A program made the translations under genes and the position numbers. 18,355 nt of DNA. It comes from Candidatus Poribacteria bacterium. Lineage in GTDB: Bacteria > Poribacteria > DTPJ01 > WJIO01. Positions 556 to 17,094 of this stretch are shown piece after piece (within the stretch, counting starts at the first letter, position 1; the number at the start of each line of letters is the position of its first letter). Below the pieces are notes generated by a model. That model had not been told where the DNA came from and made no database searches. It was given only the letters and a program-made list of their open reading frames with translations. Where the stretch lies: the NCBI GenBank assembly GCA_014730235.1, contig WJIO01000191.1:1-18355 (forward strand). Direction: 5' to 3'.

Positions 556-1186
556 GTACGTTAAACATAAAGACGCTTTGGACTATATACAGGCATGAAC
601 CTCTTTTTGAGATTGCCTAACCTTACCTTGAATAATATTATGTCGGTATTTAAACAACGTTGTTGTTTCCTAACCGTCAACGTTTTTTATCCTACCTCTA
701 CATTTATTTTTAACGATCATATAAACAAGCCTTAATATCTCTCTTCAGATACCCCACTGAAAAATTTTTTATTACCGCAAATCAAACTATCAACTCTTTC
801 CTTTTCTATACCTATCTAATATCATTTTCCAAAATAGACTCAGCAAGAGTTTCAGCGCGCCCCCCAGGAACAAGATATAATGCAAAATAGTTTTTGGAAA
901 TATTATAAAACAGAATCACATCTTTTTGACACTACGAAATTGGCATATTTGTTGCGCTTTAATAAGACAAACTTATTAGTTGGTTAAAATAATTCAGTTT
1001 ATACTTTAAGTTGACTTTATCATATTTAGCGGACAGAAATATTGTTGGATCTGCCTTGCTTATTATTCAGCAATTCACTGCTAAAGGGAGCTTATTATAT
1101 ACGGGCAATCATGCTTTGTAAATATGACTCAACCTACATTAGTATGAAAAGTCAAATTAATTTTATTTACAAAAGGAGTGCAAATT
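556..1186. other. Long intergenic region upstream of hsp20
   Basis: These 631 bp hold no convincing gene. They are AT-rich with one odd GC patch near 856-866. Visible structure: a 12-bp palindrome AACAACGTTGTT at 653-664; a TTTTTAACGAT motif near 706-720 that resembles motifs flanking the phosphoribosyltransferase gene; a sigma-54-like promoter at 941-955; and a TTGACT hexamer near 1012 without a good -10 partner. A 35-codon ORF at 880-987 has a fair ribosome site, but it overlaps the promoter candidate and has no recognisable features. If transcription starts just after 955, hsp20 has an untranslated leader of about 220 nt. Confidence 0.5.
941..955 (+). promoter_or_regulatory. Candidate sigma-54 (-24/-12) promoter
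   Basis: The sequence TGGCATATTTGTTGC has GG and GC elements separated by exactly 10 bases and agrees well with the consensus TGGCAC-N5-TTGC. It lies about 230 bp upstream of the hsp20 start. A match of this quality can occur by chance in AT-rich DNA, and no enhancer-binding protein is encoded in the window, so it remains a candidate. Confidence 0.4.
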
Positions 1187-1660
1187 ATGTCTATGAGAAG
1201 AAGAAACATTAAAGGTTTTGGTTTGCCAAGACCCCGGGATGAGAGGAATCGGATGTTTGACGATTTTAGTCGAGGATATTGGCCAAGGCCGGTAAAAGAA
1301 ATATTTGGAGGAGACAGAGTAGTTGAAGAAGATTGGTTTCCCAGTGTCGATGTATCAGAAAAAGACGAAGAAGTAATTGTTACAGCGGAAATTCCCGGTG
1401 TAGATCAGGAAGACCTGGAGATTACTTTTACCAGAGACGTATTAACTATTAAAGGCGAAAAGAAAGAGGAAGAAGAGACCAGGGAAGATGAATACCATCG
1501 CGCCGAGAGATGCTATGGCTGCTTTCAGAGGTCTATATCCCTACCGGCAGGTATAGAAGGAGAAAAGGCAAAAGCTAAGTATAAAGATGGTGTGCTGCGT
1601 ATAACCTTGCCTAAATCTGAAAAAACAAAACAAAAGAAAATTAAAGTAAATATAGAGTAA
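1187..1660 (+). CDS. hsp20: Hsp20/alpha-crystallin family small heat shock protein
   Basis: This 157-aa ATP-independent holdase chaperone binds unfolding proteins in the cytoplasm during stress. The alpha-crystallin domain runs from about residue 45 (DWFPSVDVSEKDEEVIV) to 145. It contains the family's AEIPGV segment, the DVLTIKGEK strand and the late GVLRITLPK motif. The C-terminal KIKVNIE carries the I-x-V-type motif used for oligomerisation. Two Cys in the segment RCYGCFQRS are unusual for the family and could be redox-sensitive or bind metal, which is a guess. The start is the ATG at 1187, eight bases after AAAAGGAG (1171-1178); the upstream in-frame GTG at 1178 overlaps that ribosome site. 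It has its own leader and is followed by a hairpin, so it is probably monocistronic. Confidence 0.95.
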   Translation: MSMRRRNIKGFGLPRPRDERNRMFDDFSRGYWPRPVKEIFGGDRVVEEDWFPSVDVSEKDEEVIVTAEIPGVDQEDLEITFTRDVLTIKGEKKEEEETREDEYHRAERCYGCFQRSISLPAGIEGEKAKAKYKDGVLRITLPKSEKTKQKKIKVNIE

Positions 1661-3462: not shown

Positions 3463-3783
3463 ATGACTATATGGCATTTTATATTTGCCATAATTATTGG
3501 GGCTTTATGTACTGTAATTTTTACCTGGAGATTACGCAAGAATAAAGCATCGGCGATTGTCTGGATATTTCTTTTTATCATTACCATAATAGCCTTTTTC
3601 AGCGTTTTAACAATAGGTAAATTCGGTCCCACTTTTCACGGAATTCACTGGCTGCCGTTTTTGCTGGTTGGATTGCTGTTGATAATAACAACAAGTTCCA
3701 TTGTCATACGCAATCGTATATTGAATGAAAAGAAGGAAGTCAAAAATATAGAGAAAAACATAGAGGTTGATGAGAAGTTATAA
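3463..3783 (+). CDS. Small membrane protein, member A of a three-paralogue family
   Basis: I do not recognise a named family. The 106-aa protein has hydrophobic segments at about residues 3-22, 32-50 and 62-82 and a charged, Lys/Glu-rich tail. Residues 1-66 align without gaps with the proteins at 15269 and 15676. Shared positions include W4, A9, G13, L15, T17, I19-F20, F36, I40, L49, I51, G55-P56, G60, W63 and P65. Unlike the other two, it ends after the charged tail and lacks the final membrane helix. The ATG start follows AAAGGAG (3451-3457). It lies 41 bp before PEP synthase and may share its transcript. The fixed GP...G-[IV]-[HY]-W-[LV]-P signature between helices suggests a structural or binding role. 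Confidence 0.8.
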   Translation: MTIWHFIFAIIIGALCTVIFTWRLRKNKASAIVWIFLFIITIIAFFSVLTIGKFGPTFHGIHWLPFLLVGLLLIITTSSIVIRNRILNEKKEVKNIEKNIEVDEKL

Positions 3784-3824
3784 TTCGCATTTCTAAATGA
3801 AAAGTAATAGGGAGACAGATATAT

Positions 3825-6209
3825 ATGGAAAGTAAAAGCAAGTACATTCGCTGGTTGGAGGAATTGAGCAATGATGATGTCCCCCTTGTGGGCGGTAAAA
3901 ATGCGTCACTGGGAGAGATGATCAGGGAATTAAAGGACGAGGGGGTTCGTGTTCCAAGTGGGTTCGCGACAGTTGCTGAAGCATACTGGGATTTTCTGGA
4001 AGCCAATGATATTAAAGATAAAATCAGTTCGCATCTGGAAGAATTGGAAAAAGAAAATCAATCTCTGGAAAAGACCGGGAAATCTATACGAAGGCTTATA
4101 AGGAGGGGAAACTTTCCAGATGAGGTAGCTTCAGCTATTCTGGATTCCTATAAACAGCTTTGTGAAAAATATGACAGCGACGAGGTGGATGTAGCCGTCA
4201 GAAGCAGTGCAACTGCAGAAGACCTGCCTGAAGCCAGCTTTGCTGGTCAGCAGGAGACTTTCCTGAATGTTACAGGGGATGATGAATTAATGGAAGCGTG
4301 TCGGAAATGCTACGCATCCCTGTTTACTGACAGGGCCATCAGCTATCGGGAGGAGAAGGGATTTGATCATATGAATGTAGCCCTCTCTGTGGGTGTCCAG
4401 AAAATGGTGCGCTCTGACAAGGCCGGATCCGGGGTGATGTTCTCATTAGATACGGAAACGGGTTTCAGGGATGTGGTGGTTATAAACGCCGCCTGGGGGC
4501 TGGGAGAAAATGTAGTACAAGGTTCAGTTATACCGGATGAATACCTGGTTTTTAAACCCCTTCTGGATAAAGAGAATTTTAAACCTATTGTAGATAAAGT
4601 CCTGGGCGATAAAAAGAAGAAAATGATATATACAGGGGGTGGAAGCCAAACTGTAAAAAACGTAAATACATCAAGACGTGAACAAAATTCATTTGTCCTG
4701 GAAGATGATGAGATACTTCAATTCGCCAGGTGGGCCTATGTTATTGAAAAGCACTATGACAAACCTATGGACATTGAGTGGGCAAAAGATGGCGAATCGG
4801 GGGAATTGTTCATTATACAAGCCCGACCGGAAACGGTGCAATCTCAAAAAGAAGCCAGCGAGATGAAAAGATATAAACTTAAAGAAGACGGTGAAAAAAT
4901 TCTTGAAGGTCTGGCCATCGGACAGGCCATTGCCGCGGGGAAAGTACAGGTAATTAAAAGCGCGGACAATATAGAAAGCTTTGAGGATGATTCTATACTG
5001 GTAACAGGTATGACCGATCCTGATTGGGTTCCTATTATGAAAAAGGCGGCGGGAATAATTACAGATCACGGTGGTCGTACATCCCATGCCGCTATAGTCA
5101 GCCGGGAATTGGGAATTCCGGCTATAGTCGGTACAGGTAACGCCACCTCAGTTTTAAAGGGAGACCAGGAAATTACCATATCTTGTGCTGAAGGGGATAA
5201 GGGATTTATATACGAGGGAATACTGTATTTCGATGAGTCGGATATAAACCTTCAGGATATGCCCGAAACTAAAACAGAAATAATGATGAATATTGCCAGC
5301 CCTGACGGGGCGTTTCGCTGGTGGCGGCTGCCTACGGATGGCATAGGTCTGGCTCGAATGGAATTTATAATAAACAATATTATCAAAATTCATCCTATGG
5401 CCCTGGTACGATTCGACGACCTGGATGATAGGGAAGTTAAAAATCAGATTGAGGACTTAACTCAGGGATATAAAGATAAACCAACATACTTTGTGGAACA
5501 ATTATCCCAGGGAATAGCAAAGATCGCAGCTTCTCAATATCCAAAACCGGTTATTGTTAGAATGAGTGATTTCAAAACTAACGAGTATGCCAACCTTATA
5601 GGCGGAAAACAATTTGAGCCGGAAGAGGATAATCCGATGCTTGGTTTTCGTGGTGCTTCGAGATACTACAGCGACCGATACCGGGAGGGATTTTCCCTTG
5701 AATGTCAGGCGATAAAACGGGCCCGGGAAGAATTGGGATTCGATAATGTGGTTATGATGATACCCTTCTGTCGAACCATAGAAGAGGCTGATAGGGTTTT
5801 TGAGGTTATGTCAGAAAACAATCTGAAGAGGGATGATTCGGGTCTACAGGTTTATATGATGAGTGAAATTCCATCGAATATAGTATTAGCCGAAGAATTT
5901 GCCAGTAGATTTGATGGATTTTCTATAGGTAGCAATGACCTAACACAGCTTATTCTTGGTATTGACCGGGATTCGGCTGAATTATCGGAGCTTTTTGATG
6001 AGAGAAATGAGGCGGTTAAGAAGGTTATAAAAGAGCTTATTGAAAATTCCCATAATTCAAATACAAAGGTTGGTATATGCGGACAAGCACCAAGTGATTA
6101 TCCTGAATTTGCAGAATTTCTGGTGAAGGCTGGTATTGACTCTATTTCATTGAACCCGGATAGTATTGTTGATGTAAAAAGAAGGATAGCTGAATTGGGA
6201 GGTGGATAA
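3825..6209 (+). CDS. ppsA: Phosphoenolpyruvate synthase
   Basis: Converts pyruvate, ATP and water to PEP, AMP and phosphate in the cytoplasm, the entry step of gluconeogenesis. The length, 794 aa, nearly equals the 792 aa of the E. coli enzyme. The N-terminal ATP-binding domain contains AVRSSATAEDLPEASFAGQQ (about residues 126-145). The phosphohistidine domain has TDHGGRTSHAAI with the catalytic His at residue 421, the same number as in E. coli PpsA. The C-terminal TIM-barrel domain ends with GICGQAPSDYP, whose Cys752 matches the catalytic Cys751. All key residues are present, so the enzyme should be active. The ATG start follows AGGGAGA (3809-3815). A 16-bp AT palindrome lies just after the stop (6213-6228). 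The CBS gene follows 70 bp downstream, probably on the same transcript. Confidence 0.96.
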   Translation: MESKSKYIRWLEELSNDDVPLVGGKNASLGEMIRELKDEGVRVPSGFATVAEAYWDFLEANDIKDKISSHLEELEKENQSLEKTGKSIRRLIRRGNFPDEVASAILDSYKQLCEKYDSDEVDVAVRSSATAEDLPEASFAGQQETFLNVTGDDELMEACRKCYASLFTDRAISYREEKGFDHMNVALSVGVQKMVRSDKAGSGVMFSLDTETGFRDVVVINAAWGLGENVVQGSVIPDEYLVFKPLLDKENFKPIVDKVLGDKKKKMIYTGGGSQTVKNVNTSRREQNSFVLEDDEILQFARWAYVIEKHYDKPMDIEWAKDGESGELFIIQARPETVQSQKEASEMKRYKLKEDGEKILEGLAIGQAIAAGKVQVIKSADNIESFEDDSILVTGMTDPDWVPIMKKAAGIITDHGGRTSHAAIVSRELGIPAIVGTGNATSVLKGDQEITISCAEGDKGFIYEGILYFDESDINLQDMPETKTEIMMNIASPDGAFRWWRLPTDGIGLARMEFIINNIIKIHPMALVRFDDLDDREVKNQIEDLTQGYKDKPTYFVEQLSQGIAKIAASQYPKPVIVRMSDFKTNEYANLIGGKQFEPEEDNPMLGFRGASRYYSDRYREGFSLECQAIKRAREELGFDNVVMMIPFCRTIEEADRVFEVMSENNLKRDDSGLQVYMMSEIPSNIVLAEEFASRFDGFSIGSNDLTQLILGIDRDSAELSELFDERNEAVKKVIKELIENSHNSNTKVGICGQAPSDYPEFAEFLVKAGIDSISLNPDSIVDVKRRIAELGGG

Positions 6210-6279
6210 AATAAATAAAATTTTATTTTCACTACTAATTTACAGGATTAAAAGAAACATGCAAGGGGGAATTTCAGAT

Positions 6280-7035
6280 ATGAAAAAGTCGGAATATCAA
6301 AACAAAGTAGAAACGCGCTTAGATGAACTGGACAAGAAGATGCGTGTAATCGGAGACGATGTTGGTAAAATGGAGGAAAATGTACAGCAGCAGTATAAAA
6401 AATTACGAGATCCTCTGCACGCCAAGTTAGAAGAACTGCGAAAAATATTGAAAGAACTAAAAACATCCAGTGACGCCGAATGGAAAGACATTAAAAGCGG
6501 CGTAGAGGTTGCACTGAAAGATCTTGAAAAAGGTTTTGATGGTTTGGTTTCAAGTATGAAAAATTATATATCAATAAGCGATGTAAAAGGAGATACGAAA
6601 ATGAAAGTTTCTGAGATTATGACAAAACACCCAAAAGTTTGCACACCAAAAGACAACGTGAGTGTTCCTATCGGGATTATGTGGGATTTTGACTGTGGTG
6701 ACGTTCCAGTAGTAACAAGTATGGACGGAAAGCAGTTAGTCGGTATGGTTACAGATAGAGATATTGCCATATCTGTGGTCAAACATCATAACGCATCCCC
6801 TTCGGATGTTAGTGTGGAAAGCTGCATGTCATCACCAGCTATAAGCTGCAAACCTGATGATTCAGTGGAAACAGCAATTCAGCTTATGGCAGAGAATAAA
6901 ATCCGCCGTATCCCCGTGAGTGATGATGATGGCTGTTGCGTAGGTATTTTATCCCAGGCTGATATATTAAGACAGGAACTTGATTGCGAAACTATCCTAA
7001 GCATGTTACAGCAAGTTTCTGCTCCACAAAAATAG
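6280..7035 (+). CDS. Coiled-coil and tandem CBS domain protein
   Basis: A 251-aa cytoplasmic protein in two parts. Residues 1-100 are charged, heptad-like and probably coiled coil. Residues 108-235 are a CBS pair beginning MKVSEIMTKHPKVCTPKDNV, with VGMVTDRDIAI closing the first CBS and VGILSQADILR the second. CBS pairs bind adenine nucleotides and sense energy state; the two-CBS protein Hrp1 belongs to the mycobacterial dormancy regulon. The chosen ATG at 6280 follows AAGGGGGA. An upstream in-frame GTG at 6202 overlaps ppsA and lacks a good site. A second strong ribosome site lies inside the gene just before the CBS pair, so a 144-residue CBS-only product may also be made. The long hairpin at 7087 follows the stop. 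Confidence 0.88.
   Translation: MKKSEYQNKVETRLDELDKKMRVIGDDVGKMEENVQQQYKKLRDPLHAKLEELRKILKELKTSSDAEWKDIKSGVEVALKDLEKGFDGLVSSMKNYISISDVKGDTKMKVSEIMTKHPKVCTPKDNVSVPIGIMWDFDCGDVPVVTSMDGKQLVGMVTDRDIAISVVKHHNASPSDVSVESCMSSPAISCKPDDSVETAIQLMAENKIRRIPVSDDDGCCVGILSQADILRQELDCETILSMLQQVSAPQK
6585..6603 (+). promoter_or_regulatory. Internal ribosome binding site and in-frame ATG
   Basis: AAAAGGAGA (6585-6593) is followed seven bases later by ATG at 6601, in frame with the gene that starts at 6280. The new start falls exactly at the first residue of the CBS module (MKVSEIM). The spacing and strength equal those of real starts in this window, such as hsp20. It suggests two products from one gene, or a recent fusion of two genes. 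Confidence 0.55.
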
Positions 7036-7086
7036 GGAACTTATTTAACCTTATAAGTTAAGGATGAAAAATTTGCCTGGGAAGGT

Positions 7087-7142
7087 AAAATTCTTGCTGA
7101 ATACTGCAACCGATACTACCATGGTTATTCAGCAAGAATTTT
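7087..7142 (+). terminator. Long perfect hairpin after the CBS gene
   Basis: A perfect 17-bp inverted repeat (AAAATTCTTGCTGAATA at 7087-7103, complement at 7126-7142) encloses a 22-nt loop. The right arm ends in TTTTTA, so the stem plus T-rich end fits a rho-independent terminator. It separates the ppsA-CBS unit from glgC. Confidence 0.7.
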
Positions 7143-7207
7143 TATTCTGCCGGAAGGAATTAATTGAAATCTGGAATTACGAATGAATAATAATGGGGTG
7201 AATAAAG

Positions 7208-8530
7208 GTGATCAGCAGAGACCGTGTTCTGGGTTTTATAATGGCGGGAGGTCGGGGAAAACGACTAAAAGTTCTTACCATAACTAGATGTAAACCTGTG
7301 GTAAATATCCTTGGTCGCTACAGGATATTTGATTTTGTTGCGACAAATATCGCAGATACAGGAATACGTAATTCAATAGTAGCGGCACAATTTCAATCGG
7401 AATCCCTCAAAAACTACATAGGTGATGGTAAAACATGGGGGTTTGACGGTATTAACAAAAACATTGAAGTAATTGAACCTGATAAAGAGGGCTTAGCTTT
7501 TGAGGGTACGGCTGATTCCGTTAGAAAAAGCATCAGCCGGATTGATAGGTATAATCCAGAAGTTATACTTATACTGGGAAGTGACCATATATATAAAATT
7601 GATTACTCTGACGCAATAAAATATCACATAGCAAAAGAGGCTGATATTACCATAATGACAAGCCTTATCCCGGAAAAAAATGTAAGTGAATTTGGTCTTA
7701 TAAAGATCGATGGATCTGGTCGGATAATTGACTTTGCTGAAAAACCAACGGATAAAGAGATTATCGAAAGCTTCAGGCTTACTCCAGAAATTAAGGAATA
7801 TTTGGGTATAGAAAATACTAATTTTAACTTCCTTGCATCTATGGGTAATTACATTTTCTTTAGGGAAAGGTTAAAAAGATTTCTTGATTATCCCGGAGTG
7901 GATTTTGGTAAAGATATAATTCCTGCTATAAAGAAAAACAGCCGGGATATATACGCATATATCTTTAATGGATACTGGCGGGATGTTGGTAATATACAGG
8001 ATTATTTTGAATGTAATATGGAGTTTATAAACGGAAAATCTCCAATAATTAATCTGGAAAAACAAATAAAGACTAAGGGTAAAAAAAATCATTCACCTAT
8101 TAAAAATGCAATTCTTAACTCCGATAACATTATCCGTGAATCGAGTATAATAAAAAATTCCGTTTTAGGAAGCAAAATTACAATTGAAGACCAGTGCCTA
8201 TTAGAAAACTGTATAATACTTGGCAATGATATAAACAATAGAAATGGACATTATGCCAATCAAATAGGCAAAGGTTCGAAGCTTAGCCACGTTATTCTGG
8301 ATGAAAATGTCTGGGTTGGAAAAGATGTTAATATTAATCCATGTAACGGAACTTATGAACAGAGAAAGAAAACACTAGAAAGTGTAGGCTTAAAGCCATA
8401 CAGAGAAAACGGAAGTGAAATCACTAAAGGTGATTTTTATATTGAACCTGATTCTGGTATTCTGATAATCGGAAGACAATGTGAAACTAAAACAAAAAAG
8501 ATCGTTCTGCCTGATGGTATTAGATGCTGA
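7208..8530 (+). CDS. glgC: Glucose-1-phosphate adenylyltransferase (GlgC-like)
   Basis: Likely makes ADP-glucose from glucose-1-phosphate and ATP, the committed step of glycogen synthesis. The 440-aa length is close to other GlgC proteins (about 400-430). The nucleotide-binding loop is MAGGRGKRLKVLT (residues 12-24). GTADSV, GSDHIYKIDY (Asp126), FAEKP and GYWRDVGNI match the catalytic and sugar-binding motifs. The C-terminal third is a left-handed beta-helix with hexapeptide-like repeats (SVLGSKITIEDQCLLENCII). The region usually reading RAKPAVPFGGKYRIIDF is RCKPVVNILGRYRIFDF, so regulation or sugar preference may differ. Another NDP-sugar pyrophosphorylase cannot be excluded. The start is GTG at 7208 after GGGGTGA, with no better ATG nearby. 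No glycogen synthase or branching enzyme is in the window. Confidence 0.88.
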   Translation: MISRDRVLGFIMAGGRGKRLKVLTITRCKPVVNILGRYRIFDFVATNIADTGIRNSIVAAQFQSESLKNYIGDGKTWGFDGINKNIEVIEPDKEGLAFEGTADSVRKSISRIDRYNPEVILILGSDHIYKIDYSDAIKYHIAKEADITIMTSLIPEKNVSEFGLIKIDGSGRIIDFAEKPTDKEIIESFRLTPEIKEYLGIENTNFNFLASMGNYIFFRERLKRFLDYPGVDFGKDIIPAIKKNSRDIYAYIFNGYWRDVGNIQDYFECNMEFINGKSPIINLEKQIKTKGKKNHSPIKNAILNSDNIIRESSIIKNSVLGSKITIEDQCLLENCIILGNDINNRNGHYANQIGKGSKLSHVILDENVWVGKDVNINPCNGTYEQRKKTLESVGLKPYRENGSEITKGDFYIEPDSGILIIGRQCETKTKKIVLPDGIRC

Positions 8531-8592
8531 ATTTTCTTATCAGAAGCTAATATCAGAACGCAGTATCTCTTATTAATAAAAGGAAGGTTATT

Positions 8593-8826
8593 ATGAAAAT
8601 CGCAGTTGAAGTCAGTATTTATCCTTTACATCAATCCAAAATATCACCACCTATCGAAGCAGCGTGGGAAATCTTTGATAAATGCGGGTTGTCGTATGAG
8701 AAAGGTGAGATAAGCACCCTGGTAAAAGGTGAATTTGAAGAGGTGTTTGATGCACTTAAAGAATCCTTTGAGAAAGCTGTTGAGTTCGGTGATACAAATA
8801 TGTCTGTTACCATGACCAATATATGA
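8593..8826 (+). CDS. Thiamine-binding-like protein (Thiamine_BP/DUF77, MTH1187 type)
   Basis: A 77-aa cytoplasmic protein. It opens with VEVSIYPLHQ, and GEISTLVKGEFEEVFDAL in the middle fits the conserved STxxxGE segment of the family, which has a ferredoxin-like (ACT-like) fold and binds thiamine or hydroxymethylpyrimidine in some members. It is shorter than the usual 90-100 residues. The ATG follows AAAAGGAAGG. Its TGA overlaps the ATG of the DUF2254 gene (ATGA at 8823-8826), which lacks its own ribosome site, so the two are probably translationally coupled. No thiamine gene or riboswitch is nearby, so the ligand is uncertain. Confidence 0.75.
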   Translation: MKIAVEVSIYPLHQSKISPPIEAAWEIFDKCGLSYEKGEISTLVKGEFEEVFDALKESFEKAVEFGDTNMSVTMTNI

Positions 8827-9656
8827 TACAGATAAAAATCACCAACATTATTGAAAGCCTTCATACAAGCTACTGGTTTTTGCCTATGTTAATGGTAATA
8901 ATAGCCATTGTATTCTCTGTGATAACAGTTAGGATTGACGGGATTATCCAGGAAAAATGGACTAAACCCGATTGGATTCAGGCTATTGGCATTGAGGAAA
9001 TACGTTTACTCATTTCCACCATAGCAGGATCCATGATTACCGTTACAGGTATTACTTTTTCTATTACAGTAGTTGCTTTATCCCTGGCGGCATCGCAATT
9101 TGGTTCCCGTTTGTTGAGGAACTTTATAAGTGATAGAAAAAATCAGTTTGTATTAGGTGTATTTATATCCAATTTTGTATATTGTCTTGCAATTCTCTTC
9201 AGCCTTCGTCGTTCAGAGACGGATGTATTCGTTCCACATGCCTCTATTGCCTTTATATTACTACTAACTATAACAAGCCTGGGGGTACTTATTTTCTTCA
9301 TACATCATATAGCGGAATCAATACAAGCAGAAAACATTATTTCTACAGTCAGCAAAGATTTAGAGGATTCTATAGACCAGGTAAAATCACAGGAAGCGGA
9401 GAATCCGGGATTTCATAATGGGTTGAGAAATGACGATGATATTCCAGATGATATGGATAAAAAGGCAAAACCAATATCAATATATAAAACTGGATACATT
9501 CAGGCCATTGAATATGAAGATTTGCTAAAGGCTGCGCAGGAATATAACTGTATATTTCGACTTGAATATCAACTGGGAGGTTTTGTCATAAAGGGAAACA
9601 AAATCTTAACAAGCCGCTCACCGGAAAGCAGTTCTGATAACAAAATTAAGAAATAG
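8823..9656 (+). CDS. DUF2254 family membrane protein, N-terminal part
   Basis: 277 aa, with membrane segments at about residues 17-36, 62-90, 108-127 and 142-164, then a soluble part with GYIQAIEYEDLL and GGFVIKGNKIL. This is the order seen in DUF2254 membrane proteins, which usually exceed 400 aa and have no established function. The frame ends at TAG (9654-9656). The same frame then continues to 10148 with the missing family C-terminus, so this looks like one gene cut by a single amber codon in a linker. The start ATG overlaps the stop of the previous gene and has no Shine-Dalgarno, which suggests coupling. Only a nonsense change separates it from an intact gene; no frameshift is needed. 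Confidence 0.85.
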   Translation: MIQIKITNIIESLHTSYWFLPMLMVIIAIVFSVITVRIDGIIQEKWTKPDWIQAIGIEEIRLLISTIAGSMITVTGITFSITVVALSLAASQFGSRLLRNFISDRKNQFVLGVFISNFVYCLAILFSLRRSETDVFVPHASIAFILLLTITSLGVLIFFIHHIAESIQAENIISTVSKDLEDSIDQVKSQEAENPGFHNGLRNDDDIPDDMDKKAKPISIYKTGYIQAIEYEDLLKAAQEYNCIFRLEYQLGGFVIKGNKILTSRSPESSSDNKIKK

Positions 9657-9671
9657 ATTAATGAAACGTTC

Positions 9672-10148
9672 TTGATAGGCAACAAACGTTCCATGAGTCA
9701 GGATGTGGAATTTTGCATTAACCAACTTGTTGAAGTAGCAGTAAGGGCTTTATCTCTGGGTATCAATGACCCTTTTACTGCTATAGGATGTATTAATCAT
9801 CTTGGGGCGACATTGGCTAAACTTTCTGGAGACAACGCTTCACCCTTATATATTTATGATGAGAATGGCAAGCTCCGCATTATCACTAAACCTTTGACAT
9901 TCGATAGACTGATGGATTCAGCCTTTAACCAGATACGGCAATATGGCAAGGAAACCGTAGCGGTACAAATCAGATTGCTGGAAATCATTGCTGAAATCGC
10001 CTCGCATACTGTCGGCGCAAATAAAAAATCTATATTTAGGCGTCATGCTAACATGATTAAACTTGGGTGTTCAAAAGATATGGTAAGAGAAGATTTAATA
10101 GATATTGAGGAAAAATATAGGGAAGTCATAGAAACACTTAAAAACTAA
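9672..10148 (+). CDS. DUF2254 family membrane protein, C-terminal part after in-frame TAG
   Basis: This is the same reading frame as the preceding part, open from 9657. It contains LIGNKRSMSQDVEF and RALSLGINDPFTAIGCI, matching the most conserved DUF2254 region (an iGxxRTxxQD-like segment, then RALSPgiNDPfTA). The first possible starts are TTG at 9672 and ATG at 9693. Neither has a ribosome site, so independent translation would be weak and TAG read-through or reinitiation would be needed. Conserved motifs remain intact, so the lesion is recent, a sequencing error, or tolerated. DUF2267 follows after 17 bp. Confidence 0.7.
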   Translation: MIGNKRSMSQDVEFCINQLVEVAVRALSLGINDPFTAIGCINHLGATLAKLSGDNASPLYIYDENGKLRIITKPLTFDRLMDSAFNQIRQYGKETVAVQIRLLEIIAEIASHTVGANKKSIFRRHANMIKLGCSKDMVREDLIDIEEKYREVIETLKN

Positions 10149-10165
10149 AGAATTGGAGAACAAAA

Positions 10166-10567
10166 ATGAAATACGATGATTTTATAAAAGAGGTACAGAC
10201 TCGTGGTCGCTTGAGTTCCCAGGGAGAGGCGGTACAGGCTATACGCGCTACACTGGAGGTACTTGGACAACGCATAACACAAAAAGAGGCGGAACATCTT
10301 GCATCAGAACTGCCTCAGGAAATCGGGGTATATCTCCGGGATGCCGGAGATACTGAAAGATTTGATCTGGATGAATTTTTCGAACGCGTCAACAAAATTG
10401 AAAAAAGTTCTGTGGATTTGGCTGAAAGCGTTCACCACGCCCGGGCAGTAATTTCAGTTGTTAAGGATGCCATATCTGAAGGTGAAATAAATGATATCCT
10501 GGCCCAATTACCTGATGAATTTGAACCGCTGTTTAAATCTGGTAGTGAAGGTCCTATGAATAAATAA
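10166..10567 (+). CDS. DUF2267 family protein
   Basis: A 133-aa soluble protein with no signal peptide. It opens MKYDDFIKEVQTRG and contains AVQAIRATLEVLGQRIT, AEHLASELPQEI and DILAQLPDEFEPLF, which match the two helical repeats of DUF2267. The pattern is a repeated AIxAvLxvLxxRIxxxEAxxLxxQLP; the second repeat (AESVHHARAVISVVKDAIS...) is more diverged. The molecular role is unknown; members often sit beside stress genes. The ATG follows TTGGAGAA. It lies 17 bp after DUF2254 and 27 bp before polX, so the three genes probably share a transcript. Confidence 0.85.
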   Translation: MKYDDFIKEVQTRGRLSSQGEAVQAIRATLEVLGQRITQKEAEHLASELPQEIGVYLRDAGDTERFDLDEFFERVNKIEKSSVDLAESVHHARAVISVVKDAISEGEINDILAQLPDEFEPLFKSGSEGPMNK

Positions 10568-10594
10568 TCTGATTCAATCGAGGGATGATGGAAA

Positions 10595-12316
10595 TTGCCT
10601 ATTCATAATACTGATATTGCAGATATATTTAATAAATTAGCTAATCTCCTGGAAATTAAAGAGGCTAACCAATTCAGGGTAAGGGCCTATCGAAATGCAG
10701 CCAGTACCATATCCAGCCTTTCAAAATCAGCGGCGGATATGATAGAGGATAGCGAGGATTTGACTCAGTTGCCCGGAATTGGTGAAGACCTGGCTGGAAA
10801 AATTGAGGAAATTGTAAAAACAGGCAGTCTTGCACAATTAACGGAGATTGAGAAGGATGTTCCTGCTAATCTGGATGAACTCATGGATATCCCCGGTTTG
10901 GGTGCTAAAAGAGCCAGGAAGCTCTATGAAGAATTGGGAATAACAAGCCTTGATGAACTGAAAAAGGCGGCAGAATCAGGCAAAATAAGTGAAATAGAAG
11001 GCTTCGGGCAAAAAACAGAGGAAAATATTCTGGAGGAATTAAAACACGGAGGGGAGGGGGAAAAGCGAATCCAAATCAGCGTAGCTGAGGAATATGTCAT
11101 ACCTCTGATAGATTATCTCCAGGATATGGATGGGGTGAATCAAGTTGAGGTGGCCGGAAGCTACAGGCGCAGAAAGGAAACTGTAGGCGACCTGGATATT
11201 CTCGTAACTGGTGACACTCACAACAGGATAATTGAATATTTTATAGAATATGATGAAGTGGATGAAGTGGCATCCAAAGGTGAAACTCGTTCCAGTATTG
11301 TGCTTAATTCTGGAATTCAGGTAGACTTGAGAGCTGTATCTCAGGGAAGCTATGGAGCCGCCCTTCTTTATTTCACAGGTTCAAAATCCCATAATGTCAA
11401 ACTGCGAAATATGGCCATAGACAGGGATCTAAAAATCAACGAATACGGCGTATTTAAGGATAAAGAAAGAATTGTAGGAAAAACAGAAAAAGAAATTTAT
11501 GAAATTCTCGATCTATCCTATATAGATCCAGAACTGCGTGAAAACAGGGATGAAGTTGAAGCATCTCAAAAAGGAGAACTACCTGATCTGGTAACATTGG
11601 AGGATATTCGGGGAGATCTGCAATGTCACACAAAGGCCAGTGATGGTCACGCAAGCCTGAGGGAAATGGTGGAAGCGGCCAAGGAAAAGGGATATGAATA
11701 CTTGGCCATAACTGACCATTCTCCACTAGTTGCCGTAGCTAATGGATTAGATGCTGATGGATTAGCAGAACAAATAGACAAAATAGATGAGTTAAATAGC
11801 AAGATCAATGATTTCTTGATTCTCAAATCCATAGAGGTGGATATTCTGGAGGACGGCTCTCTGGATTTAGGGGATGATATTCTTGAGAGACTTGATCTGA
11901 CTATATGTTCGATACATTCAAAATTTAATTTAACAGAGGAAAAGCAGACAGAACGGATTATTAAAGCGATGGACAATCCCAACTTCAATATTTTAGCCCA
12001 TCCGACCGGACGGCGAATTGGAAAGCGGCGTCCATATGAAGTGAATATGGAACGCCTTATGGAAGCCGCTCTGGAACGTGGGTGTTTTCTAGAGGTAAAT
12101 GCCCATCCGGAGAGATTAGATTTGAACGACGTTTACTGCAAGCTGGCAAAGGAAATAGGTTTAAAAATCCCCATATCCACCGATGCCCATCGAAAAGATG
12201 AGCTTGAAAATATAAAATTTGGTGTATGGCAGGCCCGGCGCGGCTGGCTGGAAAAAGATGATGTTCTAAACACACGGAACTGGGGGGATCTCAAAAATTT
12301 GCTAAAGAGATCATAG
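10595..12316 (+). CDS. polX: DNA polymerase X (family X polymerase with PHP domain)
   Basis: A 573-aa gap-filling repair polymerase with a 3'-5' exonuclease, about the size of B. subtilis PolX. Residues 1-150 hold the 8-kDa-like domain and helix-hairpin-helix motifs (LPGIGEDLAGKI, IPGLGAKRARKL). The nucleotidyltransferase has AGSYRRRKETVGDLDIL with Asp199 and Asp201, and a third acidic residue, Asp244, in VDLR. The C-terminal PHP domain begins GDLQCHTKASDG (residues 340-351) and keeps ITDHS, EVDIL, ILAHPTGR and ISTDAH. Gln343 stands where many PHP domains have a metal-binding His. The start is TTG at 10595 after AGGGATGATGG; nearby ATGs are out of frame. Its place at the end of a stress operon fits base-excision repair in starving cells. 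Confidence 0.94.
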   Translation: MPIHNTDIADIFNKLANLLEIKEANQFRVRAYRNAASTISSLSKSAADMIEDSEDLTQLPGIGEDLAGKIEEIVKTGSLAQLTEIEKDVPANLDELMDIPGLGAKRARKLYEELGITSLDELKKAAESGKISEIEGFGQKTEENILEELKHGGEGEKRIQISVAEEYVIPLIDYLQDMDGVNQVEVAGSYRRRKETVGDLDILVTGDTHNRIIEYFIEYDEVDEVASKGETRSSIVLNSGIQVDLRAVSQGSYGAALLYFTGSKSHNVKLRNMAIDRDLKINEYGVFKDKERIVGKTEKEIYEILDLSYIDPELRENRDEVEASQKGELPDLVTLEDIRGDLQCHTKASDGHASLREMVEAAKEKGYEYLAITDHSPLVAVANGLDADGLAEQIDKIDELNSKINDFLILKSIEVDILEDGSLDLGDDILERLDLTICSIHSKFNLTEEKQTERIIKAMDNPNFNILAHPTGRRIGKRRPYEVNMERLMEAALERGCFLEVNAHPERLDLNDVYCKLAKEIGLKIPISTDAHRKDELENIKFGVWQARRGWLEKDDVLNTRNWGDLKNLLKRS

Positions 12317-12353
12317 AAATATCCAAAACTCAAAAATTAAATTTATATATTTC

Positions 12354-12499
12354 ATCGTTAAAAAATAAACATACTGATATTTCTAAAATTAACTAAAACC
12401 AGATGCTGCAGTGCTTAAAGAGACACTAGCAAATGACAAGCTGAGGGAATTTTCAATTATAACCACACTAGAACCGGAAGAGCCTAATTTTTTAACGAT
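12354..12499. repeat. Long-spaced inverted repeat upstream of phosphoribosyltransferase
   Basis: ATCGTTAAAAAAT (12354-12366) is the exact reverse complement of ATTTTTTAACGAT (12487-12499), 120 bp apart. The same ATTTTTTAAC core forms a second inverted pair downstream of the gene (13292-13360), and a related TTTTTAACGAT lies near 710. It may be a regulator site, but the AT-richness calls for caution. Confidence 0.4.
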
Positions 12500-12560
12500 T
12501 ACATATAGGTTTAGTAGGTATATTACTTGGGCTTTTTGTTCTGGTGAAAAATATTGCTGA
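12411..12560 (+). pseudogene. Possible short ORF or gene remnant
   Basis: The frame is open from 12393. Read from the GTG at 12411 it gives about 49 residues ending in TGA at 12558-12560, including LREFSIITTLEPEEPNFLTI. The composition looks protein-like, with balanced charged and hydrophobic residues and little AT-driven Lys/Asn bias. There is no ribosome site and I recognise no family. It overlaps an inverted-repeat arm. It could be a decayed gene end or chance. Confidence 0.15.
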
Positions 12561-12590
12561 AAATATTACTATAGTATGGAGGGGTTATTA

Positions 12591-13253
12591 ATGGCAACGT
12601 TTAAAAATCGAGTTGATGCAGGTAAAAAGCTGGCTGACAAGCTTTCTGATTATAGTGACAAAGATAATGTGATTATACTTGCATTACCCCGAGGGGGCGC
12701 ACCCGTCGCCTTTGAAGTAGCAAAGAAAATTAATGCACCATTGGATGTATTTTTGGTTCGCAAACTGGGTGTACCCGGACGCGAGGAGCTGGCTATGGGG
12801 GCCATTGCATCTGGTGGAGTACGGGTATTAAATGACGATATACTCAGGATGCTGAGTATACCTGATGAGGGTATAAATAGGGTAGCAGAGAAAGAGCAAA
12901 AAGAACTGGAAAGACGCGAGATAGAATATCGGGGAGATCGTCAGGAATTAGATGTCAAAGGAAAGATATGCATACTCATAGATGATGGCCTTGCTACCGG
13001 CGCGAGTATGAGGGCGGCAATAAAAGCGCTTCAACAAATGGAACCAGCGAAAATTGTTGTTGCCGTTCCAGTAGGTGCTTCTGAAGTATGTGAGGGTTTT
13101 GAAAATGAAGCAGATGAAGTTATATGCGCGGCAACACCCGAACCTATTCATGCTATCGGGGCATGGTACGATAATTTTTCCCAGACAACCGATGATGAAG
13201 TGCGAGCTATTCTGGCAGAAGCTGATAAATTGGTAAAATCAAATGCTGGATAA
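12591..13253 (+). CDS. Phosphoribosyltransferase-family protein
   Basis: A 220-aa cytoplasmic type I phosphoribosyltransferase fold. The PRPP-binding signature ICILIDDGLATGAS lies at about residues 126-139. LALPRGGAPVAFEVAKKI (about 30-47) and VRKLGVPGREELAMGAIA (about 56-73) are typical of the Rv0571c-like group. In many bacteria this domain is fused to a dienelactone-hydrolase-like domain; here that partner is the next gene. The substrate is unknown, and no sequence typical of a named purine or pyrimidine enzyme is seen. The chosen ATG at 12591 lies seven bases after GGAGGGG; the ATG at 12576 overlaps that site. The gene is flanked on both sides by inverted repeats sharing ATTTTTTAAC. Confidence 0.88.
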   Translation: MATFKNRVDAGKKLADKLSDYSDKDNVIILALPRGGAPVAFEVAKKINAPLDVFLVRKLGVPGREELAMGAIASGGVRVLNDDILRMLSIPDEGINRVAEKEQKELERREIEYRGDRQELDVKGKICILIDDGLATGASMRAAIKALQQMEPAKIVVAVPVGASEVCEGFENEADEVICAATPEPIHAIGAWYDNFSQTTDDEVRAILAEADKLVKSNAG

Positions 13254-13291
13254 CATGATTCTTGGCTTTTTTTGGTTTGGTAAAAGTAATA

Positions 13292-13360
13292 GTTAAAAAA
13301 TGGAAAATGTGTTTAGAAAATACCTTTATAATGACAACTAAATTACATCCATTTTTTAAC
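13292..13360. repeat. Inverted repeat between phosphoribosyltransferase and hydrolase genes
   Basis: GTTAAAAAATGGA (13292-13304) and TCCATTTTTTAAC (13348-13360) are perfect complements around a 43-nt spacer. It shares its core with the pair at 12354/12487. It is AT-rich with no T-run after the right arm, so it is not a normal terminator. It may be a binding site or may affect the transcript between the two genes. Confidence 0.4.
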
Positions 13361-13432
13361 GACTACTAAAATTAAAAATTACATCAGGAATTCTCTTTTG
13401 GAAAATGGTATTGCTTAAAGGAGGAAACCGTT

Positions 13433-14110
13433 ATGGATAAAAAATCAGAAGTGAGCGTTGAGACAGATTTAATACAGATATCTCTTGATTCAGTGACTCT
13501 TGAAGGAAGTCTGAATATTCCTGAAGGCGCCCAGGGTCTTGTGCTTTTTGCTCATGGCAGTGGAAGCAGTCGGAAAAGCCCGCGAAATCGATTTGTCGCG
13601 GAGGAATTAGGCAAGGGGAATTTAGGTACTTTATTGTTTGATCTTTTAACGTCTGATGAAGAAAGCATCGATATTATGACACGGGAAATTCGGTTTGATA
13701 TTGATCTGCTGTCCGAAAGACTTATAGGCGCAACGAAATGGGTGATGGATCAACCAGCTACTCAGGAGCTTAAAATCGGTTACTTTGGCTCAAGCACAGG
13801 AGCGGCGGCTGCCCTTATAGGTGCGGCTAATCTACCTGACGTTATCAGTGCGGTTGTATCTCGCGGGGGACGACCGGATATGGCCGAAGGTTTTCTGAAT
13901 AAGGTAAAAGCACCCACGCTTTTAATAGTAGGCGGTAACGACTATCACGTTATAAAACTGAATGAACAAGCTATAGATCGTCTGTCATCAGAAAAGAAGA
14001 TGGAAATAGTTCCCGGAGCAACCCATCTGTTTGAAGAACCGGGAAAACTGGAGCAGGTTGCGCAATTGGCACGGCACTGGTTCCAGACATATCTTACAGA
14101 ACATAAATGA
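13433..14110 (+). CDS. Alpha/beta hydrolase, dienelactone hydrolase-like
   Basis: A 225-aa soluble hydrolase. The oxyanion-side HGSGSSR motif is at residues 41-47. The nucleophile elbow is GSSTG with Ser121. The acid is probably Asp170 in VGGNDYHV, and the His is His198 in GATHLFEEPG. A complete catalytic triad is therefore visible, though the substrate is unknown. The sequence is close to the hydrolase half of phosphoribosyltransferase-hydrolase fusion proteins, so a joint role with the gene at 12591 is likely even though 179 bp separate them. It has a strong AAAGGAGG site (13418-13425). GAPDH begins 13 bp after its TGA, so the two are probably co-transcribed. Confidence 0.87.
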   Translation: MDKKSEVSVETDLIQISLDSVTLEGSLNIPEGAQGLVLFAHGSGSSRKSPRNRFVAEELGKGNLGTLLFDLLTSDEESIDIMTREIRFDIDLLSERLIGATKWVMDQPATQELKIGYFGSSTGAAAALIGAANLPDVISAVVSRGGRPDMAEGFLNKVKAPTLLIVGGNDYHVIKLNEQAIDRLSSEKKMEIVPGATHLFEEPGKLEQVAQLARHWFQTYLTEHK

Positions 14111-14123
14111 AAGGATAATAGTT

Positions 14124-15131
14124 ATGGCTAAGAAAGTTGCTATTAACGGTTTCGGCCGTATTGGAAGATTGATTTTCAGACAAATAATGGATTCAGAAGA
14201 TTTGGAATTGGTTGCTCTTAATGACATTGCACCGTTGGACAATCTGGCATATTTGTTAAAACATGATTCGGTGCATAAAGATCCCAAATCTTCCATCAAA
14301 TATACTGATGATGAGCTCTTATGGGATAATAAAAAGGTTAAATTTCTGAGCATTAAAGACCCGGCTGAGCTTCCCTGGAACGAAATGGGAGTTGAGATCG
14401 CAATAGAAGCAAGTGGAATTTTTACAAATAAAGAAGACTCAGCCAAACATCTAGAAGCAGGAGCAGAAAGAGTTGTTATTACTGCCCCTGCTAAAGGAGA
14501 TGTACTTACAGTTTGCATGGGAGTAAACGAGGAAAAATTTGATCCGGATAAACACAAGATCGTTTCTAATGCTTCATGTACTACCAATTGTCTTGCTCCT
14601 GTTGCAAAAGTTCTGGACGAGGAATTCGGTATAGTGACAGGATTTTTAACAACTATACACGCCGTTACCAGTTCACAGGCGGTTGTTGACACAGCAAGTA
14701 AGAAATGGCGTAGAGGTCGCGCAGCGATAATCAATATTGTGCCCACTACTACAGGAGCGGCTATTGCTGTAACCAAAGTTCTGCCGCATCTGGAAGGCAA
14801 ACTGGACGGTCTGGCCATGAGAGTTCCGGTGGCTAACGGTTCAATAATTGATTTTGTGGTTCATACAGAACAAACAGTTAGTGTTGATAAGGTTAATGAT
14901 ACGTTTTGCAAAGCGGCAAAAACCAAAGGATTAAAGGGTATTTTGGGTGTAAGTGATGAAGAGCTCGTATCCAGCGATGTTATTGGCAGTGAATATTCAG
15001 CGATGGTAGATTTGCAATCAACAATGGTTTTGGGAGATAAATCAGTGAAGGTGCTGGCATGGTATGATAACGAATGGGGCTATGCACGACGGGTTGTGGA
15101 TTTAACCAGTTATATTAGCAAAAATATATAG
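14124..15131 (+). CDS. gap: Glyceraldehyde-3-phosphate dehydrogenase, type I
   Basis: A 335-aa, usually tetrameric enzyme that interconverts glyceraldehyde-3-phosphate and 1,3-bisphosphoglycerate with NAD in the cytoplasm. The N-terminal Rossmann motif is INGFGRIGR. Asp34 (ALND) indicates NAD rather than NADP preference. The catalytic site is SNASCTTNC with Cys152, and His179 lies in TTIHAVT. The C-terminal WYDNEWGYARRV is typical. HAVTSSQAVVDTASKKWRRG departs from the common HAYTNDQ...RRAR form, marking a divergent member. With PEP synthase in the same window it may serve gluconeogenesis. The ATG at 14124 follows AAGGATA; the upstream in-frame ATG at 14031 lies inside the hydrolase gene. The stop is TAG, and a perfect palindrome follows. 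Confidence 0.95.
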   Translation: MAKKVAINGFGRIGRLIFRQIMDSEDLELVALNDIAPLDNLAYLLKHDSVHKDPKSSIKYTDDELLWDNKKVKFLSIKDPAELPWNEMGVEIAIEASGIFTNKEDSAKHLEAGAERVVITAPAKGDVLTVCMGVNEEKFDPDKHKIVSNASCTTNCLAPVAKVLDEEFGIVTGFLTTIHAVTSSQAVVDTASKKWRRGRAAIINIVPTTTGAAIAVTKVLPHLEGKLDGLAMRVPVANGSIIDFVVHTEQTVSVDKVNDTFCKAAKTKGLKGILGVSDEELVSSDVIGSEYSAMVDLQSTMVLGDKSVKVLAWYDNEWGYARRVVDLTSYISKNI

Positions 15132-15159
15132 GATAACCTGAATCTACTTACCTTTTATA

Positions 15160-15200
15160 TCACATTTTTAGGGCGTGTTAAACACGCCCTAAAAATGTGA
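15160..15200. repeat. 41-bp perfect palindrome after GAPDH
   Basis: A 20-bp arm (15160-15179) ending GGGCGTGTT and its exact complement (15181-15200) flank one base. The GC-rich centre would form a very stable hairpin. Unlike a terminator, the T-run precedes the stem and an A-run follows it, on both strands. It might block exonucleases, cause termination in another way, or bind a protein dimer. Confidence 0.75.
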
Positions 15201-15268
15201 GTTGTCCCAAGTTAATCGGTTATGTAATTATATTCTTTAATCATTATCATAAACTTAAGGAGAAAAAG

Positions 15269-15652
15269 ATGATCCTTTGGCAAATACTATTCGCCGTTGG
15301 CATTGGATTTTTATTTACCGCCATATTCACCCTGGGATTCCGCAGAAGAGGGACGAAATCAGGTATAATACTATTTTTGATAGTCATAATACTTGCCTCC
15401 TGGGCCGGGGGATTATGGATCAACCCCACAGGCCCATCTATTGTCGGTGTATACTGGGTACCTTTTGTTATAGTTGGGTTTATATTTGCGATTATCCTGG
15501 CAGGAACACTCTTTACAAGTCCACAAAGAGAAATTGATGTTATTCATGCAGAACAAGCAGAATCCAGCATAGAAGATGCAGCAAATATATTCTTGTGGCT
15601 TCTTATTGGCATACTTCTTGTAATGGTTATACTTGGCTATTCTTTGAGATAA
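15269..15652 (+). CDS. Small membrane protein, member B of a three-paralogue family
   Basis: 127 aa with membrane segments at about residues 3-22, 31-51, 62-82 and 108-125, and an acidic loop before the last helix. Residues 1-66 align without gaps with the proteins at 3463 and 15676, including W4, G13, T17, I19-F20, G55-P56, G60, W63 and P65. I know no family name or function. The ATG at 15269 follows AAGGAGA; the upstream in-frame ATG at 15197 has no such site. The palindrome lies upstream, and the paralogue at 15676 starts 23 bp after the stop, so this is a tandem duplication on one transcript. Confidence 0.82.
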   Translation: MILWQILFAVGIGFLFTAIFTLGFRRRGTKSGIILFLIVIILASWAGGLWINPTGPSIVGVYWVPFVIVGFIFAIILAGTLFTSPQREIDVIHAEQAESSIEDAANIFLWLLIGILLVMVILGYSLR

Positions 15653-15675
15653 ATTACATTAATCAGGAGGAAGCT

Positions 15676-16095
15676 ATGTTCATTTGGCACATATTAACCG
15701 CCATAATTGTTGGAGTATTAGTTACTGTAATATTTGCCGTTATATTCCACAGAAAAGGGCCCTGGCAAAATGTGGGGATTTTCTTTCTTATTATTTTTCT
15801 GGGTGTATGGGCAGCAAGTTTATGGATTGTTCCTGTAGGGCCAAACATAATGGGTATATACTGGGTACCTGTGTTACTAACTGGACTGATTTTGGGTTTA
15901 CTTATGATTGCAGCAACCCCCCAAACCCGCGTTTCAGAGGTACAGGAAGAGGTTATTGTAAAAGGTCAATATGAGGAGGAAAGAGAATACCCTGTAAAGG
16001 AAAAGAAAATAGATACCTTACTCTGGGCTTTTCTTGGAATTACATCAATTGCCCTTTTGATTGCTATTATTGTTGGTTATGTGGTCACAGGATAA
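15676..16095 (+). CDS. Small membrane protein, member C of a three-paralogue family
   Basis: 139 aa with hydrophobic segments at about residues 3-24, 33-52, 62-83 and 116-137. A longer acidic and basic loop (about 85-115, rich in Glu and Lys) precedes the last helix. It is closest to the neighbour at 15269: both share WAxxLWI, the GP...G-[IV]-Y-WVP motif and the last helix. The start ATG follows CAGGAGGAA. The sigma factor gene begins 66 bp downstream, so members B and C may be co-expressed with it. A membrane sensor or anti-sigma role is conceivable from context but not shown by any recognised domain. Confidence 0.82.
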   Translation: MFIWHILTAIIVGVLVTVIFAVIFHRKGPWQNVGIFFLIIFLGVWAASLWIVPVGPNIMGIYWVPVLLTGLILGLLMIAATPQTRVSEVQEEVIVKGQYEEEREYPVKEKKIDTLLWAFLGITSIALLIAIIVGYVVTG

Positions 16096-16161: not shown

Positions 16162-17094
16162 ATGGAATCGTTGAAATTATCTGAAAATACAGCGGCGGCG
16201 TCGACATCGAAGAGGGGGATAAATACATTTGGAGATAGTTCAGGTTCTAAAGTATACGAAACTGGTAATGATGTTTTTATGCAGATTTATATGAAGGAAC
16301 TTGCCAGATACCCCACATTAAACGCTCAGGAAGAGAAGCAACTATTTACTGAATTTGACAAAGCAAAAGAGAATGGAGATAACAAAAAGGTTGATAAGAT
16401 TAGAGAAAAAATCGTCTTATCCAATCTGCGATTAGTATTCAGTGTAGCAAAGAGATTTAACAAAAACAGTGATCTAAATTTTTTGGATTTTATACAGGAA
16501 GGTAATATCGGGCTGATAAAAGCGGTGGATAAATTCGATCATAGAAGAGGCAACAAGTTTTCCACCCATGCTGTCTGGTGGATACGTCAAAGCATACAGC
16601 GCGCCATTGTTAATTCTACAGGAACTGTTCGTCTGCCGGCACATGTCCAGCACGAAATTAAAGAGATAAAACAGGCAGGAAAAGAAATACTCAAAAATGG
16701 CAAAAAAATATCCATAAAAAACCTTTCTGATAAAACCGGAATTTCAACAAAAAAAATCGGAAAAATTATACGAGCCCAGAAAATGGAGAAAATCACTTCC
16801 CTTAACCATATTTTATCTGGAGATGAAAATAATGTATCGGAAATGTTCGATTTGATTCCGAATGGGGATACCATGTCTCCAGAATATGAAATTACTCAAA
16901 ACGATCTTAAAAGCCATATAGAAAAAGCCCTTAGCGGTTTCAGAAAAAGAGATGCAGAAATAATAAGGATGCGCTATGGACTTAAAGATGGAAAAGAATA
17001 TACCCTTCAGCAAATAGCAGATGTCTTTAATCTTAGTCGTGAACGCGTCCGTCAGATTCAGAATAACGTTCTAGCAAAACTAAAACGCATATGA
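16162..17094 (+). CDS. RNA polymerase sigma factor, sigma-70 family (group 2-like)
   Basis: A 310-aa alternative sigma factor. It lacks region 1.1. Region 1.2 starts DVFMQIYMKELARYPTL (about 37-53). Region 2 spans about 86-155 with LNFLDFIQEGNIGLIKAV and THAVWWIRQSIQRAI, the core-binding and -10-melting parts. Region 3 spans about 157-235. Region 4 (about 248-308) contains RMRYGLKDGKEYTLQQIA and LSRERVRQIQ, the -35-reading helix-turn-helix. This resembles RpoD/RpoS more than RpoH or flagellar sigma factors. The N-terminal 36 residues are Ser/Thr-rich and probably disordered. The ATG follows TAGGAG. It is a natural candidate to control the surrounding stress genes, which is inference. No anti-sigma gene of known type is beside it. 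Confidence 0.92.
   Translation: MESLKLSENTAAASTSKRGINTFGDSSGSKVYETGNDVFMQIYMKELARYPTLNAQEEKQLFTEFDKAKENGDNKKVDKIREKIVLSNLRLVFSVAKRFNKNSDLNFLDFIQEGNIGLIKAVDKFDHRRGNKFSTHAVWWIRQSIQRAIVNSTGTVRLPAHVQHEIKEIKQAGKEILKNGKKISIKNLSDKTGISTKKIGKIIRAQKMEKITSLNHILSGDENNVSEMFDLIPNGDTMSPEYEITQNDLKSHIEKALSGFRKRDAEIIRMRYGLKDGKEYTLQQIADVFNLSRERVRQIQNNVLAKLKRI

Follow-up and report, generated by a model that had tools for sequence, protein, structure and literature searches.

A rare family of small, predicted four-helix membrane proteins encoded among stress genes in a Candidatus Poribacteria genome and in unrelated bacteria

The window analysed here, the whole 18,355-nucleotide stretch of contig WJIO01000191.1 from a Candidatus Poribacteria bacterium, encodes three small membrane proteins, paralogues A, B and C, in the company of several stress-related genes (Table 1). 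Open reading frames for all three are present where the initial annotation had placed them, each with a plausible ribosome-binding site, and that of paralogue C starts 23 bases past the end of paralogue B. Between the GAPDH gene and paralogue B, positions 15160-15200 hold a perfect 19-bp inverted repeat with a 3-base loop (fold z -9), the core of which is unique in the genome; it has no T-tail and is therefore not a canonical terminator. Two separate ORFs, 8823-9656 and 9672-10148, match profile positions 2-248 and 262-367 of one DUF2254 membrane protein, reflecting either a broken gene or a sequencing error. At positions 12576-14110 a gene for an alpha/beta hydrolase comes after one for a phosphoribosyltransferase; a fusion of the phosphoribosyltransferase-hydrolase type belongs to the mycobacterial DosR regulon.

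Table 1. Genes of the window, with positions counted from its first nucleotide
Feature	Position	Strand	Remarks
Hsp20 small heat-shock protein	1178..1660	+	Pfam HSP20 7e-25
BON-repeat protein, 490 aa, six BON domains, N-terminal signal-like helix	1779..3251	+	Pfam BON E 1.5e-85, six stretches
Paralogue A, 106 aa	3463..3783	+	derived copy; three predicted helices, without WAGG element and fourth helix
CBS-pair protein, N-terminal sll1863-like coiled coil	6202..7035	+	NCBIfam sll1863_fam 1.8e-15
GAPDH, upstream of B	14121..15131	+	start assigned to the internal ATG of the 14031-15131 ORF
Paralogue B, 127 aa	15269..15652	+	typical four-helix member, WAGGLWINPTGPSIVGVYWVPF hairpin
Paralogue C, 139 aa	15676..16095	+	four-helix member; WAAS replaces WAGG
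Sigma-70 family factor, downstream of C	16162..17094	+	Pfam Sigma70_r2 5.5e-18, r4 3.3e-14

Residues 1-66 of the three proteins align without gaps, as had been claimed, with pairwise BLOSUM scores 8.5-11.8 standard deviations above those of shuffled sequences. They have in common exactly the 16 positions named in the initial annotation, plus Met1, where 20,000 shuffles averaged 0.74 and never exceeded 6, and the GP-x3-G-[IV]-[HY]-W-[LV]-P motif is found in each of them. The description of the tails was likewise accurate, with a charged end in A and a charged loop plus a further helix in B and C. W4 is indeed shared by A, B and C, but it is not a family-wide feature, occurring in 4 of 35 members.

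The AlphaFold2 monomer model of paralogue B (pLDDT 84.6, pTM 0.77; two of the five models were poor) has helices at residues 2-23, 30-50, 64-81 and 94-126 and a short hairpin near residues 57-62, so that B combines four predicted helices with the WAGGxW element, while the three-helix model of paralogue A is of low confidence (pLDDT 73, pTM 0.40). Lysine and arginine residues number 2.2 per protein in loop 1 and 4.0 in loop 3, compared with 0.26 in the hairpin loop. Under the positive-inside rule this distribution would place both termini and the conserved hairpin in the periplasm; the hairpin thus probably faces the periplasm, judging from charge alone.

Neither Pfam nor NCBIfam gave a match to A, B or C above cut-off, and the profile search places none of the three in a known family. 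When a 35-row set of members was compared with Pfam, NCBIfam and PHROGs, the matches among the 25 commonest families listed were weak and scattered. Those to the Pfam families Acyl_transf_3 (best E 0.00028), OATP and holins fall below the cut-offs and were rejected as hydrophobic-helix noise. PHROG 32616 weakly matches 6 of the 35 members (best E 0.0075), which probably reflects shared hydrophobicity. A profile search of the PDB found no meaningful or convincing relative, Foldseek returned no significant fold match, and neither the family nor its cluster came up in a literature search. The initial view of A, B and C as a real paralogous family is therefore upheld, and the family is unnamed in the Pfam, NCBIfam and PHROGs libraries.

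The 5.5 Mb genome, in 451 contigs, holds exactly one more copy, found with the profile of A, B and C at positions 22876-23253 of contig C27 (E 1.7e-31). Here a six-BON-type protein, a coiled-coil protein, the family protein and an ECF sigma factor are encoded in that order, with a PRC-barrel gene and others beyond. Between the two clusters, the BON proteins share 48% identity over 482 columns, and the coiled coil of C27 is 34% identical (E 1e-14) to the sll1863-like N-terminal part of the CBS protein in the window, which indicates that the clusters are paralogous as sets. In both, a sigma factor lies directly downstream of the family gene, and the two factors differ in class. No family gene accompanies a third similar BON gene, on contig C302, within the 6 kb examined. 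Tetranucleotide distances to other contigs (0.10 for the window and 0.12 for C27) fall towards the lower end of the contig-to-contig range, making bin contamination an unlikely source; since their composition fits the rest of the bin, both clusters are probably native to the genome. All four copies match the family profiles, which span about 128 positions, those of the window with 93-129 bits against the 35-row profile that includes them, and the family has expanded to four copies within this lineage.

Scanning contigs of other genomes with the three-row alignment gave no match, and the peptide patterns followed the residues of the window's own genome. A DNA pattern for W[x]GGxWxxPxGPxxxGxxW, checked beforehand on two known copies and applied to one genome per species over 84,980 species, matched 46 loci. 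The ten in Streptomyces proved to be chance matches out of frame and were discarded; the other 36 encode proteins that share the layout of the family, with about 130 residues, four predicted helices and a WAGGxWxxPxGPxxxGxxWxPF hairpin. The 36 loci represent about a dozen bacterial lineages, labelled as MAGs or strains of Deltaproteobacteria, Desulfobacteraceae, Nitrospira, Omnitrophota, Ignavibacteriae, Planctomycetota, Hydrogenedentota, Zixiibacteriota, GN15, WS1, Trueperaceae, Spirochaetes, Oligoflexia and Orenia. Since W45, G47, G48, W50, P53, G55, P56, G60 and W63 are prescribed by the pattern, their invariance in the rows that it found is a consequence of its design. Independent evidence of homology comes from conservation at positions outside the pattern (F37 in 28, P65 in 27, F66 in 26, G70 in 25, F109 in 28, W110 in 30, L116 in 32 and Y124 in 33 of 35 members). 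Homologues with G55-P56, W63 and mostly P65 thus occur far outside the Poribacteria genome, and by sequence this is a true protein family, rare and widely scattered over bacteria. An apparent pairing of an acidic residue 5 with a basic residue 123 (Fisher p 0.016) was set aside, as the statistic ignores shared ancestry.

Profile searches free of the pattern recovered more divergent copies, including further members in the phyla sampled. Contigs from three Nitrospira genomes (loci L079, L080 and L083) carry two or three copies each, among them a divergent form whose open frame is longer, at ~180 residues. No copy was found in 83 other Poribacteria genomes, giving at least 1 of 84 for the phylum itself; in three other phyla the frequencies are at least 3/148, at least 3/199 and at least 2/198 genomes, with the search-centre genome counted in each, and these values are lower bounds in which part of the first-look candidates of large genomes was scored. 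Searches of plasmids, phages and viral contigs gave no family match. In the tree the four Poribacteria copies group together, their nearest relatives being from Sedimentisphaerales, Omnitrophota and a spirochaete, and paralogue A has by far the longest branch (2.44). Horizontal transfer or frequent loss may account for this patchy distribution.

The stress-gene setting seen in the window recurs in unrelated bacteria. Neighbours were clustered from the genes of 38 wider loci and the two clusters of the Poribacteria genome, as delimited by a crude, simple ORF caller. Counted by lineage, the most recurrent neighbour is a BON-repeat protein (9), followed by PRC-barrel proteins (5), GAPDH (4), a PfkB-type kinase (4), DNA polymerase X (3) and FtsH (3); among the nearest two genes per side, Pfam tallies BON 6 times, transaldolase and phosphomannomutase 3 times each and the trehalose-6-phosphate synthase type twice. 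Response regulators and kinases also occur near members and were left uncounted because they are abundant everywhere. In the Sedimentisphaerales locus L062, genes for a BON protein, Hsp20 and the family protein follow each other, with polymerase X and a PRC-barrel protein nearby, a setting much like that of the window, and in L071 and L088 the gene directly adjoining that of the family protein encodes GAPDH. Of 25 other genomes, 6 have a BON gene no more than two genes away from the family gene, where ~0.24 would be expected (P about 7e-8) when every BON domain is counted as a gene, in a test made after the pattern was seen; in the follow-up set this applies to 0 of 5 loci. Since most family loci are without a BON neighbour, a BON partner cannot be obligatory. 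In L070 and L076 the family gene is followed directly, on the same strand, by an FtsH-type gene, the follow-up locus L112 has an FtsH-like gene directly after it, as judged by N-terminal sequence only, and Lon-like genes are found near some members.

These observations bear on several possible functions. Among the suggestions initially made were a small channel and sensors acting with the sigma factor. The former can be framed as a small channel or transporter, homo- or hetero-oligomeric, that is switched on under stress, in which the tandem paralogues B and C could hetero-oligomerise. The size and four-helix layout of the proteins, the tandem copies in the window and in Nitrospira and the conserved glycine and proline residues would suit such a role; however, the predicted helices carry no conserved charged residue, and no match to a channel or transporter family or to a channel fold was obtained, which leaves the proposal without positive evidence and, in our estimate, unlikely. 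The latter, a membrane sensor or anti-sigma partner controlling the downstream sigma factor, derives from the arrangement of both Poribacteria clusters, but the different classes of the two sigma factors argue against it, as does the absence of a recognisable cytoplasmic regulatory domain from the family proteins. Among the other mapped loci a sigma factor is detectable nearby only in L073, three genes away; the link is not conserved outside this genome, and a regulatory role of this kind appears very unlikely.

The FtsH-type genes of L070 and L076, the FtsH-like gene of L112 and the Lon-like genes would fit an adaptor or modulator of membrane proteolysis, acting beside FtsH and other quality-control proteases. 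We consider this unlikely, given that the FtsH pairing is found mainly in one group of Desulfobacterota-type genomes and that there is no FtsH gene within the window or beside the C27 copy. Least probable, to the point of being barely credible, is a membrane enzyme of the MAPEG-like kind with lipids or thiols as substrates. MAPEG proteins such as FLAP, LTC4 synthase and MGST2 have four helices and about 130-150 residues, and these three align passably in structure, being among the better rows (Z 5.1-5.2 over 90-100 residues, rmsd 3.8-4.7), yet VIA Z values of 5-6 among the structures listed, several MAPEG entries included, are at chance level for helical bundles. Foldseek gave no significant hit, there is no sequence match, and MAPEG is missing from the full Pfam match lists of A, B and C (E up to 1).

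Homology, the four-copy expansion, the predicted four-helix fold and the recurring stress-gene neighbourhood are established here by computation. The reading that we prefer, at a probability of roughly 40% and on the strength of predicted fold and gene neighbourhood, is that the family consists of small polytopic inner-membrane proteins of envelope-stress islands, which may stabilise the membrane or dock partner proteins. Within this reading, paralogue A, having neither the fourth helix nor the WAGG element, would be a copy that has become specialised or is decaying. Expression of the island would be a response to envelope or redox stress, and the family protein would insert in the inner membrane, where its Trp/Gly/Pro hairpin, which we infer to lie at the outer leaflet, could stabilise or organise the membrane and possibly serve as a dock for the BON-repeat protein, presumed to occupy the same periplasmic compartment; Hsp20 and other island products would meanwhile protect the cytoplasm. 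DolP binds anionic phospholipids through its BON domains (PMC7806268), which makes it plausible that a membrane protein might work beside a six-BON protein. A bolder version, in which the family acts as an inner-membrane dock for multi-BON periplasmic proteins, with the string of BON domains bound by the outward WAGG...GP...GxxWxPF hairpin and so held at the inner membrane under stress, as part of a mobile envelope-protection module common to unrelated phyla, is unlikely.

Absent from the libraries searched, the family offers a concrete, testable candidate for a component of envelope-stress islands, and its company of BON-repeat proteins, Hsp20 and FtsH shows where its function may be sought. 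The profile allows the family gene to be found and deleted in named hosts, for example Orenia metallireducens.

Several known systems invite comparison. The DosR dormancy regulon of Mycobacterium comprises gene kinds that include Hsp20, a CBS protein, a phosphoribosyltransferase with a hydrolase, and ferredoxin. The window appears to resemble it in having Hsp20, a CBS protein, a phosphoribosyltransferase adjoining a hydrolase and a ferredoxin, a likeness in gene kinds; a DosR/DosS pair was not identified within the window. Among the genes of the tLST are those for a small Hsp and for membrane proteins whose role is unclear. Like the islands of the present family, the tLST (described in PMC8290217) is a scattered, apparently mobile stress island. 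The gene content of the window, in contrast, is centred on BON, PRC-barrel, PEP synthase and polymerase X, a distinction drawn from general content and not gene by gene. A further comparison is with the BON envelope proteins OsmY and DolP/YraP. These are soluble or lipid-anchored repeats, whereas the family described here consists of predicted integral membrane proteins and has no sequence relation to them; the two nevertheless occupy the same gene neighbourhood and, by inference, the same periplasm-facing compartment, and they likely serve the same broad role in envelope integrity.
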